From a virus, in the IMG/VR virus record IMGVR_UViG_3300034190_002531, positions 1 to 25,596 of that record: a stretch of 25,596 nt of DNA; one strand, given 5' to 3'. Position numbers and translations under genes: made by a program. Below the pieces are notes generated by a model, which was given only the letters and a program-made list of their open reading frames with translations, had not been told where the DNA came from and made no database searches. This document shows, piece after piece, positions 7,916 through 16,126 of the stretch. The stretch's first letter is position 1; every line of letters starts with the position of its first letter.

Positions 7916-8149
7916 TCAACCAAAAATTGCTCTGATTTGCTCTTCTGCGCGAAGGGCGAGCTTGCCGTTGCAATACACGCGAAACAGCTTGATGCCTTTT
8001 CTTTCGCCGTAGTAATGAGCAATCGAGTAGGTCTTGCCTGATTTCGCAAAGGTGACCTCCCAGCTGGCCTTGACAGGATCGACGCCGATGGCGATCAAGG
8101 CTTCGATGGTTTCCTCTGAGGTGTGAGGAGCTTTGGTTTCAGAAATCAT
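7916..8149 (-). CDS. Small protein (77 aa), first gene after a regulated promoter
   Basis: The start is the ATG at 8149 (MISETKAPHTSEETIEALI). An upstream in-frame ATG at 8203 would lie inside the promoter. The rest looks like a compact alpha/beta fold (SWEVTFAKSGKTYSIAHYYG, LFRVYCNGKLALRAEEQI). I recognise no family. It is the first gene downstream of the -35/-10 pair with a GGCGCGCC palindrome in its spacer, so it and the next two small genes may have their own timing. Confidence 0.66.
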   Translation of the reverse strand: MISETKAPHTSEETIEALIAIGVDPVKASWEVTFAKSGKTYSIAHYYGERKGIKLFRVYCNGKLALRAEEQIRAIFG

Positions 8150-8181
8150 GGAACAGTGCCGTCTCCGGCTTGGGCTCCCCA

Positions 8182-8213
8182 ACATTAAACCGTGGCGCGC
8201 CACGCGTCAAGTC
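8182..8213 (-). promoter_or_regulatory. Promoter with a palindromic operator in its spacer
   Basis: On the minus strand a TTGACG -35 (8205-8210) is followed by a 17-nt spacer and TAATGT (8182-8187). A TTTAAT reading at 8184-8189 with a 15-nt spacer is possible. The spacer contains the perfect 14-bp palindrome CGTGGCGCGCCACG (8191-8204). The -35 overlaps the stop codon of the cytosine-methylase-like gene. A protein bound there would block RNA polymerase. The same layout recurs on the plus strand at 13773-13801. Confidence 0.55.
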
Positions 8214-8800
8214 AAAAGGCTCAGCTGCTCCACGACTGGTGGAAGCAGGCGGCTGCCCCATTGATAGGCCATCGCATCAGCAACGCCTTGATAAGTGCGG
8301 CTGCGCTCCTTCCATCGGTCGGGCCCTGGGCTCATCAGGTGGACCTTTGGCTCTCGGCCCTCCACGCAGTTTGAGGGGACAAGCCTTGGCAAATTCTGCA
8401 GCCAAAAGCAGGTGGCCTTGGTTTCTCCGTGCCCGTGCTCCCAAGGCTGAATGATTTGATCCGGCGGCCTGATCGCGCTGCTGATCACGCTCACTGGGTT
8501 TTCAATGCACCAACGAGGGATAGGTGCGGACATCAAAAGCCGAACAAAATTCAACGCATCTCGCTGTTCACGCTGTTTGCGGTGGAAATGACGAGAACCG
8601 CTGACTGCAAGGTGGGTGCAAGGCGGATGAGCCACCATCAAATCCCAGCCTTCATGCAACAACTCCTCGACAGGGCCTTGGTGATGCCACTGCGGATCAG
8701 CCTCGCACTCAAGAAGGTCGCAAGACCACGCATCGTGCCCGCGCTTGCGGAAGGCGTCTCGCACCCTGCCGCTGTATTCACAGGCAACGAGGATTCTCAT
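8207..8800 (-). CDS. Cytosine-5 DNA methyltransferase-like protein
   Basis: A 197-aa protein. The N-terminus RILVACEYSGRVRDAFRKRG (residues 2-21) with AWSCDL resembles a S-adenosylmethionine-binding motif I. HPPCTHLAVSG (58-68) carries a catalytic-type Pro-Pro-Cys, and IENPV (99-103) corresponds to the ENV-type motif VI. This matches short phage proteins related to C5 cytosine methylases that lack a large target-recognition domain. It would modify cytosines in phage DNA, possibly against host restriction. Its ATG overlaps the preceding gene by 4 nt. With the ParB-methylase the phage has two modification genes of different chemistry. Confidence 0.8.
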   Translation of the reverse strand: MRILVACEYSGRVRDAFRKRGHDAWSCDLLECEADPQWHHQGPVEELLHEGWDLMVAHPPCTHLAVSGSRHFHRKQREQRDALNFVRLLMSAPIPRWCIENPVSVISSAIRPPDQIIQPWEHGHGETKATCFWLQNLPRLVPSNCVEGREPKVHLMSPGPDRWKERSRTYQGVADAMAYQWGSRLLPPVVEQLSLLT

Positions 8801-9060
8801 GAGGCTTCAGTTGCCAAGGCTTTGACAACAGCATTCACTAGGCGCACGAGGTTCTCCTGAGGAACGCCCACGAAGTGCTCGCTGAGGTTCCTGACCGCCC
8901 GCTCCTGCGCCTCAGGCTCCATCTGCACGCGGGGGATGATGCCGGCGTTCAAGGCGCGATCACGGACCAGCTGCGCGCGAGACACGCCATGCGCTGCGGC
9001 CTCAATATCCAAACGGTCGCGCTCCTCGGGAGTGACGGCGAACTTGATCTCCTTGGACAT
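8797..9060 (-). CDS. Ribbon-helix-helix / MobC-like DNA-binding protein
   Basis: An 87-aa protein from the ATG at 9060, which overlaps the helicase stop (TGATG). EIKFAVTPEERDRLDIEAAAHGVSRAQLVRDRALNAG (about residues 4-40) has the beta-strand, helix, helix pattern of ribbon-helix-helix repressors and plasmid MobC accessory proteins. The rest (PEAQERAVRNLSEHFVGVPQENLVRLVNAVVKALA) is helical and may oligomerise. The position directly after the helicase suggests a role in replication initiation or local transcription control. Confidence 0.72.
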   Translation of the reverse strand: MSKEIKFAVTPEERDRLDIEAAAHGVSRAQLVRDRALNAGIIPRVQMEPEAQERAVRNLSEHFVGVPQENLVRLVNAVVKALATEAS

Positions 9061-10706
9061 CAAAAATCAAACGGGTCAAGAGGTTCAGAATCGTCAGGGT
9101 GTGGGCCTTCGTCAAGCTCCCAAGGCTCAGGCTCGTAATCGGCCTTGAACGGGCTGGATTGACAGAGGCGAATGTCCAGGTCCGGGCGCTGGTTGCGGAA
9201 CTGAACGAGCGGGTTCCCGAGCTTGGCGATCGTGATGGACAAGGGATTGGAGTTGTCTTGGACAACCCAGCCGTTTGACCAAACCCCGGCACTGAAACGC
9301 TCCACCGCATCACCGACCGACAGGGGTGACAAAGGGGGGTCTCCCCCTGCAATGGGTGACAAGGGTGATAAAGGTGACAAAGGCTTCGTATCGTGTGTGT
9401 AGGGGGTACTTTGTCCCCTTTGTGACGTTTGTCCCCCCTCTAGGGAGGAGACCCCTGAGGGTCGGAACAACAGCGCCGGACGACCGCCTTCCGTCTCCGC
9501 TTGCCCGGCTTGCTCGACCAGTCCCTTGCGTTCCAACGAGCGCAAGCAGCGGTGCGTTTTGTTCCGCTCCAAGTTGAAATGGCCCGACAGCTCGGATGCG
9601 GCAACCGGAAACTCACCGAGCATCCACCGCTCCTTGATGTAATCGAACACGTCAGCCTGCCGGCCTTGCAGATCGTCAGCGGCCTCCTGCATCGCCTCAG
9701 CAGCCAGCACGCTTTCGCCATCGCCGTGGTGAATCCAGCCGTCGTCCTTCAACTCGATCAGCAACGTGGTGCCTTTGGCGCGGCCCTGCGTTTTGACCAC
9801 AACGCGGTGGTCGTTCTGCGTTTGCCCCTCCGCAGGCTGGCGAAACCAGTTCATCAAGATCGTGAGGCTGGCCGCTGCCGGCAAAGCGTTCGAGCCGCGT
9901 GATGCGTTTGTCGCGTTCCCGCCTGCCACCGATTTATTAGTGTGGTGGATCATCGCCAGCGTGGCGTGATGCGGTGCCAACGCCTGGGCTAGGTCGCGTG
10001 CCGGGCCATCAAAGGCGCTGGTGGCCTCGTCAACGCCGAGAGGGCTGATGCAGGCGTGGTAGCTGTCGAGCAAGAACAGCGAGCCAGGGTTGGCCTCTGC
10101 TAGGCCACCAAGGTGCTCAATCCCTTCCGCCGTCAAGTGCAACGGTGCACCCGTGTGCCAAAGCATCTCGATCGGGCCGCCCATGTCACCCTCTGGCGTG
10201 ACGAGCCCCTCGCGCTTAAACAAGGTGAACCAGTCGTTCTCCGGCTGGTCAGTGCCAACGATGAAAACCTTGGGGCAAGTGCCGTGCAGGCGCAGGCCGC
10301 AGAACTCACCATCGCCGCGCCACCAAGCGCCGATCATCCCGACCATCAACGCTGACTTACCGACCTTGGGCGGGGCCACCAGCAAGTTGAACGTGCCGGC
10401 CATCAACACCCCTTCCCAGGCCCAAGGAGTGGGCGTTGTATCCATGCGCTCGCCACGCAGGCGGGGCAGGGTCACACCGGCAACCTCCCCGCGAGCACGA
10501 GCCAAATAAACGGCGGCGGTGCGTTCGCTGATCGGGCAGGCCAGCTCCTCGGCCATGAGGCGGAGCCGCTGGTTTTGCAGAAAAGGATCGGCTTCGTCAG
10601 AGAGGACCGCCTTTGCGGCGGACTGGACGCGCGCGAGGAGTTCCTTGTGATCGCTCAGGCTTTCTGGACTGATGAAGACTTCGGAGTCTTCGGGTGTAGT
10701 AACCAT
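9060..10706 (-). CDS. RepA-like replicative helicase (AAA_25, RecA fold) with winged helix
   Basis: I start at the ATG at 10706 (548 aa). The frame is open to 10835 but the extra part is antisense-like and overlaps the upstream gene heavily. The RecA-type ATPase has Walker A APPKVGKS (111-118), KVFIVGTDQPENDW (146-159), Walker B LFLLDS (210-215) and AMIHHTNKS (251-259), as in RepA/KaiC-like hexameric helicases. Residues about 350-400 (VFDYIKERW, ELSGHFNLERNKTHRCLRSLERKGL) form a winged helix. A low-complexity PLSPLSPLSP linker (442-451) and an acidic tail follow. It should unwind phage DNA at the fork. No primase is visible in the window. Confidence 0.87.
   Translation of the reverse strand: MVTTPEDSEVFISPESLSDHKELLARVQSAAKAVLSDEADPFLQNQRLRLMAEELACPISERTAAVYLARARGEVAGVTLPRLRGERMDTTPTPWAWEGVLMAGTFNLLVAPPKVGKSALMVGMIGAWWRGDGEFCGLRLHGTCPKVFIVGTDQPENDWFTLFKREGLVTPEGDMGGPIEMLWHTGAPLHLTAEGIEHLGGLAEANPGSLFLLDSYHACISPLGVDEATSAFDGPARDLAQALAPHHATLAMIHHTNKSVAGGNATNASRGSNALPAAASLTILMNWFRQPAEGQTQNDHRVVVKTQGRAKGTTLLIELKDDGWIHHGDGESVLAAEAMQEAADDLQGRQADVFDYIKERWMLGEFPVAASELSGHFNLERNKTHRCLRSLERKGLVEQAGQAETEGGRPALLFRPSGVSSLEGGQTSQRGQSTPYTHDTKPLSPLSPLSPIAGGDPPLSPLSVGDAVERFSAGVWSNGWVVQDNSNPLSITIAKLGNPLVQFRNQRPDLDIRLCQSSPFKADYEPEPWELDEGPHPDDSEPLDPFDF
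9325..9383. repeat. GGTGACAAA 9-bp tandem repeats within the helicase gene
   Basis: Three adjoining 9-nt units (GGTGACAAG, GGTGATAAA, GGTGACAAA, from 9355, 9364 and 9373) follow a separate copy at 9325-9335. They encode the PLSPLSPLSP linker on the minus strand. Related sequence in the opposite orientation (CCCCTTTGTGACGTTTGTCC) lies at about 9416-9435. They may simply be a coding repeat, or iteron-like sites for a replication protein. The window gives no way to decide. Confidence 0.6.
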
Positions 10707-12078: not shown

Positions 12079-12147
12079 AGCGTGCGCGCGTTGCGAACGC
12101 TCTGCATCGGTGTTACGTTGCGGGGCGTCCGCGCCTCTTCTGCGCTC

Positions 12148-12741
12148 ATGACCATTTCATTGCCCACACGCGAGAAGCCGGCAAAGGCTGAGTTTCCTCG
12201 CATTGAAAAAACTCCCTCAGAAATTGCCGAGCGCCTCAAGGTTGACGATCACGCCTTAAGCAATCTTTTTCTTGAGTCATCGGCTTGGGCTCCTTGGGTG
12301 TGGAAGGGCTCGGATCTTTCTGCGCCTTTGCGTGCTCTTTACATCGCCGAGACGCTCGGGCTTCTTCAGCAAGATGAAAGCCAACGGACCAAGGACGTTC
12401 CCATCACGGACATCACTGCAGCAGTCAATCGTTGGTTGATGGATCGCGGGCAAAACCCTGTCGCCGAAACAACGATCTACGGCAATCTCAAAAGCGCCGC
12501 AACATTTGTCCACGTCGCGCTTGGGCTGAGCATCGTGCCGATCAAGAAAACCATGACGGTTCGGCTAACTGATCAGAAGCAAAACCTGGCAAACCTTGAG
12601 AAGTACTTCGCTCTTGCTGAAACACAGCTGAGCAAAATTCTTAAAGAGCTGCAGGTTGCTGAAAGCCACAACTGGGAAACGCAGCACATCCTTGACCGCG
12701 TTGCCAGCGACACAGGCTTACGGATCGGGCCAGCCAATTAA
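12148..12741 (+). CDS. Unknown protein (197 aa), possibly DNA-interacting
   Basis: The start is the ATG at 12148 (MTISLPTREKPAKAEF). The 66 nt of open frame upstream are atypical and the gap there could hold a promoter. The N-terminal region has Lys/Glu-rich helices. The middle DITAAVNRWLMDRGQNPVAETTIYGNLKSAATFVHVALG (about 115-153) looks like a helical DNA-binding or winged-helix unit. The C-terminus is helical with coiled-coil character (NLEKYFALAETQLSKILKEL). No family is recognised. A strong hairpin follows the stop. Confidence 0.7.
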   Translation: MTISLPTREKPAKAEFPRIEKTPSEIAERLKVDDHALSNLFLESSAWAPWVWKGSDLSAPLRALYIAETLGLLQQDESQRTKDVPITDITAAVNRWLMDRGQNPVAETTIYGNLKSAATFVHVALGLSIVPIKKTMTVRLTDQKQNLANLEKYFALAETQLSKILKELQVAESHNWETQHILDRVASDTGLRIGPAN

Positions 12742-12750
12742 TCAAACCCA

Positions 12751-12766
12751 GGGGGCTTCGGCCCCC
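12751..12766 (+). terminator. UUCG-loop hairpin after the 12148-12741 gene
   Basis: GGGGGC-TTCG-GCCCCC is a perfect 6-bp stem (7 with the flanking A-T) closed by a C(UUCG)G tetraloop, followed by TTCTTC. It lies 10 nt after the stop. The U-tract is broken, so it may act as a leaky terminator or as a 3' RNA stabiliser. Confidence 0.65.
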
Positions 12767-12786
12767 TTCTTCATTGAGACACGCTT

Positions 12787-13776
12787 ATGACTTCTGCAAT
12801 CGTTCCTGAAATCGTCGACGTCGAGATCCTTGAAGACTCCGCAATGACGGACGTTGAGGAAAAAGAGCTGGTGATTGTCAAGACTGCCATCCGCACCGCG
12901 TATTGCAGTCGCATGGAGCAAGACCTAGCGATTGGCGCGGGGCTGACCAAGATTTTCAATCGCAAGCTATATCGAGGCAAAAATGGCGGACGCTCTTGGG
13001 AAAACTGGCTCAAAGATGAGTCGGCTGAACTGACCTCTGGACGAGGCCCTCTCAACAAGATGACCGCCCAGCGCCTGCGTGGGTTTTATTTGTTCCGTTG
13101 CGAAGTGTTACTGCCGGCGACCGGCCGGTCGGCCGATCTCCCGTTACCAACCTGCGCCTACCAAATCAGGCCGCTGCTAGCTCAACTCGAGAGTCACCCA
13201 AGAGCGGCGGTTGAAATGTGGAAGGCAGCCTGCGCCGACGCCGGCAAGGGCAAGGTTCCAAGTTTTGAACAGGTTCAACGCGCTGCCCTTGCCTTTAAAG
13301 CAAACGAAGCGAACGAAGCCAGGCGTTTGTCCGCAGGACAACAGGCTTCTTTAGACGCAGCAAATGCGGCTCGAGCCGAGAAAAGAACTTGGGAGCAAGC
13401 AGAGCCAGCGCCTAAAACCGAACGTCTCAAAACTGAAGAGGAGGTCAAAGGCTGGACTCTTCAAAAAGACGACGGCGCACTCGACGCCATCGAAGAGTGC
13501 AAAGAGATCACGCGCGCAATCAACAAGGCGCATGAGGCCGTTGGCCTGCTGCGCGGCATTCTCTACAAACGCATCAGCGTTCACGGGCGCGACTACATGG
13601 GTTTCCTGCGCCAGGTCGATGCCGGCGTTTACAGCCTCTCGACCATCGACCACGAGGTTAGGCAGATCGGGGAGGACGTGGACTTCGTGCTGGCGTTACT
13701 GGTCGCAGACGTCGGAGAGGGCGAGCTGTCCCAGATCACCGTTGACCTTTCGGCGATTCCGACACGAGAGACTTGA
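12787..13776 (+). CDS. Unknown protein (329 aa)
   Basis: The start is the ATG at 12787, just after the hairpin. No Shine-Dalgarno is visible, and MTDVEE at residue 20 is an alternative. The N-terminal third has a helix-turn-helix-like composition (MEQDLAIGAGLTKIFNRKLY, GRSWENWLKDES, NKMTAQRLRGFYLFR). The middle is an Ala/Glu/Lys-rich likely coiled coil (FKANEANEARRLSAGQQASL). The C-terminus is helical (DAIEECKEITRAINKAHEAV, then DYMGFLRQVDAG). The N-terminus recalls phage proteins that combine a DNA-binding head with a long helix, but I cannot name a family. Confidence 0.72.
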   Translation: MTSAIVPEIVDVEILEDSAMTDVEEKELVIVKTAIRTAYCSRMEQDLAIGAGLTKIFNRKLYRGKNGGRSWENWLKDESAELTSGRGPLNKMTAQRLRGFYLFRCEVLLPATGRSADLPLPTCAYQIRPLLAQLESHPRAAVEMWKAACADAGKGKVPSFEQVQRAALAFKANEANEARRLSAGQQASLDAANAARAEKRTWEQAEPAPKTERLKTEEEVKGWTLQKDDGALDAIEECKEITRAINKAHEAVGLLRGILYKRISVHGRDYMGFLRQVDAGVYSLSTIDHEVRQIGEDVDFVLALLVADVGEGELSQITVDLSAIPTRET

Positions 13777-13801
13777 CGGGCGCGCCACGCCTAGGCAATG
13801 T
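13773..13801 (+). promoter_or_regulatory. Promoter with GGCGCGCC in its spacer
   Basis: TTGACG (13773-13778), a 17-nt spacer beginning GGCGCGCCACG, then CAATGT (13796-13801). The -35 overlaps the stop codon of the upstream gene, exactly as at 8182-8213, where -35, spacer length and the AATGT of the -10 also agree. Here only the right arm of the palindrome is complete. It would drive the gene at 13840 and, with readthrough of the following hairpin, the recombination genes. Confidence 0.5.
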
Positions 13802-13839
13802 GTGGGAGCCGAGAGGCACTGCTCAATTGCTTTTTTGAC

Positions 13840-14022
13840 ATGACTCCCCTGGAGCGTCTCAACCGCGCGCTTGTCATCCGCAAGGCCCTGACCGACCTGA
13901 TGACAGCCGAGGAGGCCGAAGCCCACGAGGGCATCACCGACTACCTCGAGGATTACGTGCGCGATCTCGTCATCGATTACGAGAACAGCATCAAGGTCGA
14001 CCTTCCTTCCTTTCTGTCCTGA
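13840..14022 (+). CDS. Small acidic helical protein (60 aa), unknown
   Basis: The ATG at 13840 gives 60 aa (MTPLERLNRALVIRKALTDL...). The ATG at 13798 would overlap the proposed -10. The protein is helical and acidic (MTAEEAEAHEGITDYLEDYV), ending in DLPSFLS. No family is recognised. It stands alone between a promoter and a strong terminator, so it may be expressed separately, as early phage host-takeover proteins often are. That last point is inference. Confidence 0.62.
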   Translation: MTPLERLNRALVIRKALTDLMTAEEAEAHEGITDYLEDYVRDLVIDYENSIKVDLPSFLS

Positions 14023-14025
14023 CCC

Positions 14026-14046
14026 AAGGCCCTTCGGGGCCTTTTT
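14026..14046 (+). terminator. Rho-independent terminator with UUCG loop
   Basis: AAGGCCC-TTCG-GGGCCTT followed by TTT makes a perfect 7-bp stem with a UUCG tetraloop and a U-tract. It lies 4 nt after the stop at 14022. The next gene starts at 14050 directly after the U-tract. Confidence 0.82.
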
Positions 14047-14049
14047 CTC

Positions 14050-14382
14050 ATGAACACCAGCGACCTGCCAATTTTCAACCATCCGACGGCACCCCACAAC
14101 GGTGTCGACACCAGCCGAGAGGCAGCCGACAGCGTGCGCGACCAACTCAACGCCATGTGCAAGCAAGTGCTTGAAGCGGTCCGCAATTGCCCTGGCGGCC
14201 TCACCTGTGAGCAGGTTGAGCAGCTCCTCGGCATGAAGCATCAGACCGCTAGCGCCCGGCTGCGCGACCTGATGTGCCTTGAGCCTTGCCCGCTTGAGTT
14301 CCGGCCTGATGAGAAGACAGGCAAGCCCCAGCGTCGGAGCACCGCCTCCGGCAGAACCGCCCGCATCTACTTCGCAAAATGA
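14050..14382 (+). CDS. Winged-helix protein (110 aa)
   Basis: After a Pro/His/Asn-rich start comes VDTSREAADSV, then a winged-helix core: CKQVLEAVRNCPGGLTCEQVEQLLGMKHQTASARLRDLM (about residues 37-75). The basic tail TGKPQRRSTASGRTARIYFA probably forms the wing. This TSREAA...HQTASARLRDL layout is common in phage early-region proteins of unknown target, with a recognition helix around HQTASARLRDL. The ATG follows a terminator by 4 nt, so expression depends on readthrough or an embedded promoter. The stop overlaps the next start by 4 nt. Confidence 0.78.
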   Translation: MNTSDLPIFNHPTAPHNGVDTSREAADSVRDQLNAMCKQVLEAVRNCPGGLTCEQVEQLLGMKHQTASARLRDLMCLEPCPLEFRPDEKTGKPQRRSTASGRTARIYFAK

Positions 14383-14867
14383 CTGAATCCATCGACCGTC
14401 AAGCCCAAAACGAGTTTGTTGAAAACGACGAGGGCTACAAGCTGGTCCGCGAACGTCACAACAAAATGCATGCGGAAGCTCGGAACGCCAAGCGCGACAT
14501 TTTGTTTGAGCTTCGGAAGATCAACATGCTGCTTATGGCTTTTGACCTTTGCGTTGAGAAATCATGGGAGCACGAGGACATTGAGGAAGGCAGCGAGCTG
14601 GACAAACAGCTCAAGCGACTCACTCCTGATGGCAGCGACCTTTGGTACGGCCACTACAACGCTGCTGCAGAGCTGATCAAGGATCAAATGGTTGAGCAAT
14701 GCAGCAACGTGCTCACTGCACGGTTTAAAGCAAAGAAAATGCAGGAGGAGGCTGCTTCGCATTGCGACAGCCTTCGCGCCGCCCGCGAGGAAGCTGAAAA
14801 GCGTTACGTCGCTTCGCTGCAGCCAGTAAAGCGCGGCCCTGGCCGCCCGAAGAAGAACGCAGCTTGA
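14379..14867 (+). CDS. Unknown helical protein with C-terminal AT-hook
   Basis: A 162-aa, mostly alpha-helical charged protein. Heptad-like segments lie near residues 20-60 (AEARNAKRDILFELRKINML) and 118-145 (FKAKKMQEEAASHCDSLRAA, REEAEKRYVASL). The end, KRGPGRPKK (151-159), is a classic AT-hook that binds the minor groove of A/T-rich DNA. The gene overlaps both neighbours by 4 nt in the recombination operon, so a DNA-linked role is likely. The remainder matches nothing I know. Confidence 0.7.
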   Translation: MTESIDRQAQNEFVENDEGYKLVRERHNKMHAEARNAKRDILFELRKINMLLMAFDLCVEKSWEHEDIEEGSELDKQLKRLTPDGSDLWYGHYNAAAELIKDQMVEQCSNVLTARFKAKKMQEEAASHCDSLRAAREEAEKRYVASLQPVKRGPGRPKKNAA

Positions 14868-15292
14868 GCAGCTTCACTTTCACGGTCATGGGCAAGCCTG
14901 CCCCACAGGGGAGCAAACGCTCCCTCGGTGGTCGGGTGATGATCGAGTCCAGCAAGCGCTGCAAACCATGGCGGCAAGACGTCCGCCACGCGGCGCTGGA
15001 CTTGACACCTAAAGCGTGGCGCGCCACACTACCGATGAAGGTCGAGGTCGACTTTCTTTTCAGTCGCCCGAAGGCGGACTACCGCACCAACGGCGAGCTG
15101 AAACCATCTGCTCCACTTCATTTGACTAAGCGCGTCGGCGATGTCGACAAGCTTTGCCGCGCGCTTCTCGATGCCATGACGGGCGTCGTCTTTGATGACG
15201 ACTGCCAGGTCGTGACGCTTATTGCCAACCGCCGTTATTGCCTCTCACATGAGCGACCAAGCGCAATCATCACAGTTACAGCCCTCGGCTGA
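14864..15292 (+). CDS. rusA: RusA-like Holliday junction resolvase
   Basis: A 142-aa protein starting at a TTG at 14864 that overlaps the previous stop. Starting at the ATG at residue 9 would remove the first beta-strand. Family marks: FTFTVMGKPAPQGSKR at the N-terminus, then KRVGDVDKLCRALLDAMTGVVFDDDCQV (residues 89-116) with the conserved acidic residues D93, D95 and the DDD at 111-113 that bind magnesium. RusA dimers cut four-way junctions symmetrically. Here it would resolve recombination or replication intermediates before packaging. A GTGGCGCGCCAC palindrome lies inside the gene. Confidence 0.9.
   Translation: MSSFTFTVMGKPAPQGSKRSLGGRVMIESSKRCKPWRQDVRHAALDLTPKAWRATLPMKVEVDFLFSRPKADYRTNGELKPSAPLHLTKRVGDVDKLCRALLDAMTGVVFDDDCQVVTLIANRRYCLSHERPSAIITVTALG
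15002..15027 (+). promoter_or_regulatory. TTGACA plus GTGGCGCGCCAC palindrome inside rusA
   Basis: A perfect -35 hexamer TTGACA (15002-15007) is followed by the perfect 12-bp palindrome GTGGCGCGCCAC (15016-15027), which is 13/14 identical to the site at 8191-8204. No convincing -10 lies at 16-18 nt. It may be a distant operator copy or a promoter remnant within coding sequence. Confidence 0.35.
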
Positions 15293-15950
15293 ACTGGTCG
15301 CCGCGCTGATCAAATTTCAGCAGTCGGTTCCGACCATTCACGACAACGACAACAGCTACCACGGTGGCTTTGCCAACCTGCCCGGCATCCTCTCAACCAT
15401 CGGGCCAAAGCTGCGCGAGAACGGCCTCGCCGTCTCTCAGCTGCCGGAGGAGATCAACGGCCAGCCTGGCCTCCGCACCACATTGCTGCACACCAGCGGC
15501 CAGAGCCTGACTGCCGTCACTCCGCTTGCGGTCAACGCAGGGAAGAACGGAACCCAAGAGTGGGGCAAAGCAATGACCTACTCCCGGCGCTACGCCCTTC
15601 AGGCGGTTCTTGGCCTTTGCGTTGGCATTGAGGACAACGACGCGGACATGGATCCAGAGCCGACGCGCACGCGCACGATTGAGCCGAAGGCAAAGCCTGC
15701 CCCGGCTGCAGCAGCCCCGGCAATCAAAACTGAGCTGTCAGATGCCGATAAGCAAACCTGCATCGACATGATCAGAGCGATTGGTTTGCCAAAAGAAAAA
15801 GGCGGCTTAGGCAAAAAGTATGAGATGCACAAGATCCTCAAAGAATTTGGGGAAGCTTTTGAAATTAAATCTGAAAAAGTCTCTGACGGGATCCAAACGG
15901 TTGTCCATCAAGAATGGATTGCCAAGCGTTGCATGGCTGCTGAGGCATGA
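15249..15950 (+). CDS. erf: ERF-family single-strand annealing protein
   Basis: A 233-aa protein from the ATG at 15249, overlapping rusA by 44 nt. The ERF core spans about residues 15-130: LVAALIKFQQSVPTIHDNDN, GGFANLPGILSTIGPKLRENG, LLHTSGQSL and EWGKAMTYSRRYALQAVLGL (104-123). A Pro/Ala linker and a Lys-rich helical C-terminus follow. ERF proteins bind single-stranded DNA and anneal complementary strands. With the exonuclease, RusA and SSB-like genes in one operon, it forms the phage recombination system. Confidence 0.92.
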   Translation: MSDQAQSSQLQPSAELVAALIKFQQSVPTIHDNDNSYHGGFANLPGILSTIGPKLRENGLAVSQLPEEINGQPGLRTTLLHTSGQSLTAVTPLAVNAGKNGTQEWGKAMTYSRRYALQAVLGLCVGIEDNDADMDPEPTRTRTIEPKAKPAPAAAAPAIKTELSDADKQTCIDMIRAIGLPKEKGGLGKKYEMHKILKEFGEAFEIKSEKVSDGIQTVVHQEWIAKRCMAAEA

Positions 15951-16126
15951 CCGATGGGCGGACATCACAAGCGCGTCGTGATGCACGGCGGCGCAAATTT
16001 CAATTCGGTGTGCGGTTGGATTCCGATCTAGCCGCGCAACTGCAGCACTACGCCGACAAACGCCACGACGGCATCATCAACGCTGCTCTTCAAACGATCA
16101 TCCTCAAATTTTTCAACGGCAAGTAA
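15947..16126 (+). CDS. Small ribbon-helix-helix-like protein (59 aa)
   Basis: An ATG at 15947 (overlapping the ERF stop by 4 nt) opens 59 codons ending in TAA, which overlaps the next ATG (TAATG). An Arg-rich start (GRTSQARRDARRRK) is followed by KFQFGVRLDSDLAAQLQHYADKR and IINAALQTIILKFFNG, a beta-strand plus two helices typical of Arc/CopG proteins. Small size and overlaps on both sides make it easy to miss. It may regulate the recombination genes. Confidence 0.7.
   Translation: MTDGRTSQARRDARRRKFQFGVRLDSDLAAQLQHYADKRHDGIINAALQTIILKFFNGK

Follow-up and report, generated by a model that had tools for sequence, protein, structure and literature searches.

Downstream of a DNA methyltransferase gene in a cyanosiphovirus contig, a promoter carries a palindrome in its spacer and shares its -35 hexamer with a stop codon. 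Does this arrangement belong to a phage regulon, and which protein would read the palindrome? The window, by which we mean the whole stretch of DNA analysed, is a virus record of 25,596 bases. Its TerL/portal region shows ~69% DNA identity to the cyanosiphoviruses KBS-S-2A and S-H1; the RepA region matches S-CBS3 at 68%. DNA methyltransferases are encoded on the contig; an Rfam search of the window gave no match, and a tRNA search found none.

The preliminary description had proposed a TTGACG promoter with 17-nt spacing at 8182-8213, a perfect 14-bp palindrome in its spacer and a stop codon overlapping its -35, and our analysis confirmed all of these. The feature is real and lies on the minus strand, with TTGACG at 8210-8205 and, 17 nt past it, the -10 hexamer TAATGT at 8187-8182. 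The palindrome CGTGGCGCGCCACG occupies 8191-8204, and the TGA at 8209-8207, within the -35, ends the upstream methyltransferase ORF (8207-8800, minus strand). As a functional unit, the 14-bp palindrome was given up for a 10-bp operator core, TGGCNNGCCA. At this locus, called element 1 here, the operator is TGGCGCGCCA (8193-8202, strandless), inside the longer palindrome. The order is -35, 17 nt with the operator, -10, a hairpin right after the expected RNA start (GCCG-GAGA-CGGC with a GNRA loop; 8158-8169, minus strand) and the ATG of a small ORF of 77 aa (7916-8149, minus strand). The -10 of element 1 differs among close relatives, in which it reads TAATGT, TATTGT, TAATTT or TAAGGT.

A close copy had been described at 13773-13801 on the plus strand. 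Its TTGACG (13773-13778), 17-nt spacer, CAATGT (13796-13801) and TGA stop (13774-13776, closing ORF 12787-13776) were found as claimed, but the 14-bp palindrome is not common to both copies. The second copy, element 2, has only GGCGCGCC, 3 nt closer to the -35 than in copy 1, and a degenerate operator, GGGCGCGCCA (13778-13787), that matches at nine of ten positions. On the other hand, the two copies are alike further than had been described, through GGGAGCC and a GAGA-loop hairpin and CACTG to the ATG; their common string is ...TTGACG..GGCGCGCCACG..AATGT.tGGGAGCC, followed by the hairpin (GCCGGAGACGGC or GCCGAGAGGC), CACTG and ATG. The hairpin of element 2, GCC-GAGA-GGC (13808-13817, plus strand), has longer stems in relatives (GTTGCC-GAGA-GGCAAC in L015, GTTGCC-GAGA-GGCAGC in L021). 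Behind it lies a 60-aa ORF of the MTPLERL family (13840-14022, plus strand), whose orthologues on other contigs likewise stand behind an element. TTGAC-18-nAATGT without mismatch occurs in the window at two sites only, copies 1 and 2, and 0.01 occurrences of TTGACG-17-WAATGT are expected there by chance.

Two further hairpins were observed in this region. A perfect hairpin with an AGGGGGC stem (12750-12767; TTCG loop on the plus strand) lies between ORFs 12082-12741 and 12787-13776 and is terminator-like on both strands. The winged-helix gene of the window (14050-14382) follows a terminator-like hairpin (14026-14043) instead of an element.

The third GGCGCGCC of the window lies inside the gene of a RusA-like Holliday junction resolvase (14864-15292, plus strand), where a perfect operator TGGCGCGCCA is found at 15017-15026. 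Together with TTGACA (15002-15007) and, at 17-nt spacing, CACACT (15025-15030), it makes up element 3 (15002-15030, plus strand), and the RusA codons TGG-CGC-GCC (W-R-A) are part of the operator. A generic promoter scanner with stricter rules listed none of elements 1-3.

Related contigs gave 202 distinct elements whose operator reads TGGY(AT or GC)RCCA. The commonest 10-mer palindromes over these contigs were TGGCATGCCA (57 distinct sites) and TGGCGCGCCA (26), the next reaching 18; each contig listed carries one of the two, and none listed carries both. The operator centre is constant within each contig, being AT in most contigs (AT type) and GC in two clades (GC type). In the 202 elements, the distance from the start of the -35 to that of the palindrome is 6-8 or 15 nt, apart from single sites at 14 and 18. 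Spacer length peaks at 17 (122 sites), with 0-14 sites at every other length from 12 to 23. The elements have sigma-70-type hexamers at the corresponding spacing, and many are near consensus (TTGACA in 56, CATAAT in 45 of the 202), alongside some weak -10 and -35 hexamers. Among the ORFs examined, elements stand in front of small, unrelated ones that fall into at least 17 clusters, usually 50-60 nt from the ATG. As in a regulon, several copies of one operator stand at promoters and are coherent within each genome. In some AT-type elements (L077, L073, L080 and L227), a second, imperfect operator (TGGCTTGCCA) lies over the -35, ~19 nt from the perfect one, which suggests paired dimers.

In a first IMG/VR pattern search, several of 14 loci were unrelated chance matches, and the scans for GCCGGAGACGGCACTG and for TGGCNNGCCA with a hairpin gave many chance matches, of which only the promoter-bearing ones were kept. 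The matches listed from a scan of genome contigs came from scattered bacteria and archaea, with no cyanobacterium among them, and have little bearing on host genomes.

In relatives, the block formed by promoter, operator and leader stays constant while the flanking genes change. In L009, which lacks the ORF corresponding to 7916-8149, the block leads directly to the next gene. In L024, L025 and L026 the methyltransferase is missing and the block adjoins the gene of a NikA-like ribbon-helix-helix protein (RHH1), with the TGA of TGACG as its stop.

A GNRA hairpin lies within 60 nt of the -10 in 97 of the 202 elements, compared with 0-4 in shuffled sequences, and is missing in the other 105. It usually begins 5-13 nt past the -10, close to where the RNA should start. 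The loops are GAGA (76), GGGA (11), GCAA (6) and GCGA (4), on 28 distinct stems. All four stem pairs show changes on both sides in an alignment of 25 leaders, which were picked for having the hairpin and are therefore biased towards it; the shuffle test is the fairer test. Folded as single sequences, the two window leaders were not above shuffles (z -1.1 and -0.1), and copy 2 of L015 gave z -2.7. Because the window leaders fold no better than shuffles, the case for the hairpin rests on comparison. The hairpin may affect mRNA stability or translation. In AT-type leaders such as L361, L372 and L398, the stretch from hairpin to ATG is often G-poor, with repeated ACCTC/CCTCAA; it holds no Shine-Dalgarno sequence in these leaders, and the sole GGAG is within the hairpin.

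As candidate regulators, the preliminary description had named the ribbon-helix-helix and zinc-ribbon proteins encoded here. Our data favour the ribbon-helix-helix class, but the favoured protein is neither the NikA-like one (8797-9063) nor the zinc ribbon; it is a 59-aa Arc-like protein, RHH2 (15947-16126, plus strand), whose gene lies between Erf and an SSB-like gene. Its assignment to the class is based on weak matches. The window protein scored E 0.087 against RHH_1, below the cut-off; the best values within the family were 0.0015 (RHH_1) and 0.0017 (Arc), and Pfam Arc matched 3 of 12 members. With the family profile, the best solved structure was SvtR (2kel, E 0.0058, again weak), a viral ribbon-helix-helix protein. 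The AlphaFold monomer was poor (pLDDT 62), with helices 26-37 and 44-56, an extra N-terminal helix and no beta-strand, and a Foldseek search with this model gave no match. The strand motif QF[Q/G/S]VRL, part of KFQFGVRLD in the window protein, aligns with Arc Q9-F10-N11-L12-R13, which places Gly21 of RHH2 at the position of Arc Asn11. In Arc, Gln9, Asn11 and Arg13 contact bases (PMC12645479).

Residue 21 of RHH2 tracks the operator centre in all 72 contigs compared, being Q in 63/63 of the AT type and G or S in 9/9 of the GC type; the pattern used to search for RHH2 admitted Q or S alone at this residue. Of the 53 RHH2 columns, no other separates the types by disjoint residues. One disjoint column is not rare in itself, and such columns were also found in RusA (3/137) and Erf (4/69); the match gains its weight because the sole RHH2 column falls on a base-contact position, for which the chance is roughly 3/53. 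For Q contigs without perfect palindromes, AT-centred variants had been predicted in advance, and the scan that followed gave TGGTATGCCA and TGGCATACCA, each set in a promoter with a hairpin; one site, in L062, departed from the pattern. In a larger set, 54 of 56 sites were AT-centred. Counting TGGYNNRCCA sites in contigs with RHH2, we found that 119 of 129 AT-centred sites of Q contigs lie in a promoter, compared with 0/4 GC-centred sites and 6/114 with other centres. In G/S contigs, the corresponding counts were 13/14 for GC centres and 2/9 for other centres. These embedding statistics over many contigs rule out chance copies. GC-type contigs are more GC-rich on average, with overlapping ranges. 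The proposal of a phage regulon under one repressor or activator is thus supported by the embedding in promoters, the spread before unrelated small genes and the 72/72 residue match.

How often did residue and operator change? In the TerL tree, the GC type has at least two origins, on well-supported branches, and in a tree of RHH2 plus RusA both residue and operator changed twice, together. With two events, significance is out of reach (sign test, p = 0.5). In the Erf tree the G and S clades group together, which leaves room for an exchange of the early region and for a common ancestry of the operators. The RHH2 of the window resembles the Q-type homologues of L063 and L123 (65-67%) more closely than S-type ones (49-51%), which argues for a separate substitution in the window lineage. 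The MTPLERL ORF, the winged-helix gene, 14379-14867 and Erf (13840-15950 in the window; also L078, L092 and L229) are common mainly to GC-type phages, which looks like an exchange of early regions among phages that have one operator type in common.

The operator within RusA follows the same division. Forty-two contigs carry it in the RusA codons, as TGG-CGC-GCC-A (W-R-A) in 9/9 G/S contigs and as TGG-CAT-GCC-A or TGG-TAT-GCC-A (W-H/Y-A) in 33/33 Q contigs with the site. The base after the W-x-A codons is always A, though the next residue varies, and the operator is flanked by TTG and CANNNT at 17-nt spacing. Since the middle residue (R, or H/Y) goes with the operator type of its genome, the protein residue is apparently set by the DNA site. 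The remaining Q contigs mostly lack W-x-A in RusA, and most have an operator-promoter ~1.5-1.9 kb upstream of RHH2. Overall, an operator-promoter lies upstream of RHH2 on the same strand at 81 of 111 loci (79 of the 87 for which 1.5 kb or more of upstream sequence is available), 0.8-2.0 kb away in all but two loci. Given this position, autoregulation is predicted.

We propose that each element comprises a putative sigma-70-type promoter, TTGNNN-17-NANNNT, with a 10-bp operator TGG(C/T)NN(G/A)CCA, often followed by a GNRA hairpin, and then a small gene. Host RNA polymerase would read the elements early in infection, and an RHH2 dimer would bind the operators through its beta-ribbon and block the promoters. 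The promoter inside RusA, being upstream, could drive the RHH2 gene and thereby create negative feedback, and the leader hairpin would stabilize the short mRNA or set its translation. Such a regulon, in which candidate RHH2 represses a set of promoters including its own in related viruses infecting marine cyanobacteria, is in our judgement the probable explanation. Operators lie over or within the promoter in two registers, so a repressor that occludes RNA polymerase suits the arrangement; the near-consensus promoters and the feedback site before RHH2 make early transcription followed by shut-off the simplest model. It is conceivable, at a little under an even chance, that in a clade of cyanosiphoviruses the small accessory genes are portable one-gene cassettes, every one equipped with an operator-promoter and a 5' GNRA hairpin, under RHH2, whose specificity switched at least twice by a single Gln to Gly/Ser substitution at the Asn11 position together with all operators, including the one in RusA (His/Tyr to Arg).

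The same regulon could be served by another binder, such as the NikA-like RHH1 (8797-9063, minus strand), an NrdR-like zinc ribbon, the winged-helix protein (14050-14382) or a host regulator, which we regard as unlikely. In both operator types the RHH1 gene does lie a short way upstream of element 1, but RHH1 was not found in the element-bearing contigs L078, L088, L092, L094 and L229, which are incomplete. Likewise, a zinc ribbon is present in many contigs but was not found in the element-bearing, incomplete contigs L153, L172, L182 and L203. The winged-helix gene stands behind its own element in L078, L092 and L229, yet among the AT-type contigs, themselves incomplete, none has the protein, though elements are present. 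The RHH2 residue match comprises few independent events, which favours another binder. One would not expect the specificity of a host factor to change along with a phage residue.

We find it improbable that RHH2 binds the sites as an activator of middle genes or is mainly an architectural or replication protein. Recombination and replication genes surround its own, a number of -10 and -35 hexamers are weak, and ribbon-helix-helix proteins can act as activators or as repressors, as a study on AmrZ indicates (PMC3325190). Nevertheless, operators placed inside the promoter in two registers suit occlusion better, and many of the promoters are near consensus at 17-nt spacing. That the repeats serve chiefly as recombination cassettes or as gene boundaries for gene swapping, like T4 PeSLs, or as methyltransferase sites, with regulation secondary, seems very improbable indeed. 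Genes are gained and lost exactly at the block borders (L009; L024, L025 and L026), elements precede the clusters of unrelated ORFs counted above, and methyltransferases are encoded on the contig. However, conservation is confined to the operator, the -35/-10 spacing and the hairpin fold, with variable sequence in between; homology alone would preserve neither a 17-nt spacer nor compensatory hairpin changes nor the switch of the operator centre within RusA codons.

The ingredients of the proposed RHH2 regulon are already known: phage operators, ribbon-helix-helix repressors, PeSL-like cassettes and SAS/ESAS repeats. A limited search of the open-access literature found no description of the combination or of a protein for this operator. 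PeSL (promoter early stem-loop) cassettes were reportedly described by Arbiol 2010 and Comeau 2014. Their stem-loop is a terminator of the upstream gene. The hairpin of our elements is not such a terminator: it stands between the -10 and the ATG, its loop is of the GNRA kind and, in the leaders examined, no T-run comes directly behind it. The elements also differ in having an operator in the promoter spacer. T4-type PeSLs consist of an intergenic host-type promoter and a stem-loop and are short units before small hypervariable genes that are swapped at their borders (PMC4503421); the elements similarly combine promoter, stem-loop and gene shuffling at gene borders. The SAS/ESAS repeats of cluster K mycobacteriophages are multi-copy blocks before the start codons of many gene families, in which an inverted repeat is paired with a start-associated motif and the repeat consensus varies by subcluster. 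SAS is a 13-bp GGGATAGGAGCCC at the ribosome-binding site/start codon, and ESAS has 17-bp imperfect arms plus a spacer and is not known to have an assigned protein (PMC3203893, PMC12699233). Our elements differ in motif, length and position, having a 10-bp operator within a sigma-70-type promoter and, as candidate regulator, a protein with a residue that matches the operator type. Cluster A stoperators resemble them in that one repressor serves many genome-wide sites whose consensus diverges between phages, but are 13-bp asymmetric sites that stop elongation and are bound by a monomeric repressor (PMC6550527, PMC9283540), whereas the element sites are palindromes inside promoters and have a ribbon-helix-helix protein as their candidate regulator. 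With Arc of phage P22 and its superfamily, RHH2 shares small size, the aligned strand Q-F-x-V-R-L and, as proposed here, short palindromic recognition. Arc, however, is known for one tetramer-bound 21-bp operator; RHH2 would serve many promoters, and its sequence matches are weak only (SvtR 2kel, E 0.006).

Among isolates, S-CBS3 encodes a divergent RHH2 homologue of the Q type, gp32, found by profile only, and has two TTGACC-17-CATACT/CATAGT promoters with TGGTATGCCA, near 26,118 and 28,918 on the minus strand of its record; it grows on Synechococcus CB0202. This version is weaker than that in the metagenomic contigs and is usable in the laboratory. A BLAST search of INPHARED with the element or RHH2 gave no isolate relative, and in KBS-S-2A and S-H1 the proteins beside SSB are different ones and elements of this kind are absent.

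Little is known of gene control in cyanosiphoviruses, and function is lacking for most of their small genes; the shared operator would define an early regulon among them. With an operator hidden among its codons, RusA clearly exemplifies the overlap of protein and regulatory code. Moreover, a tiny regulator whose key residue tracks its candidate operators offers a natural test case for how a protein and its many sites change together.
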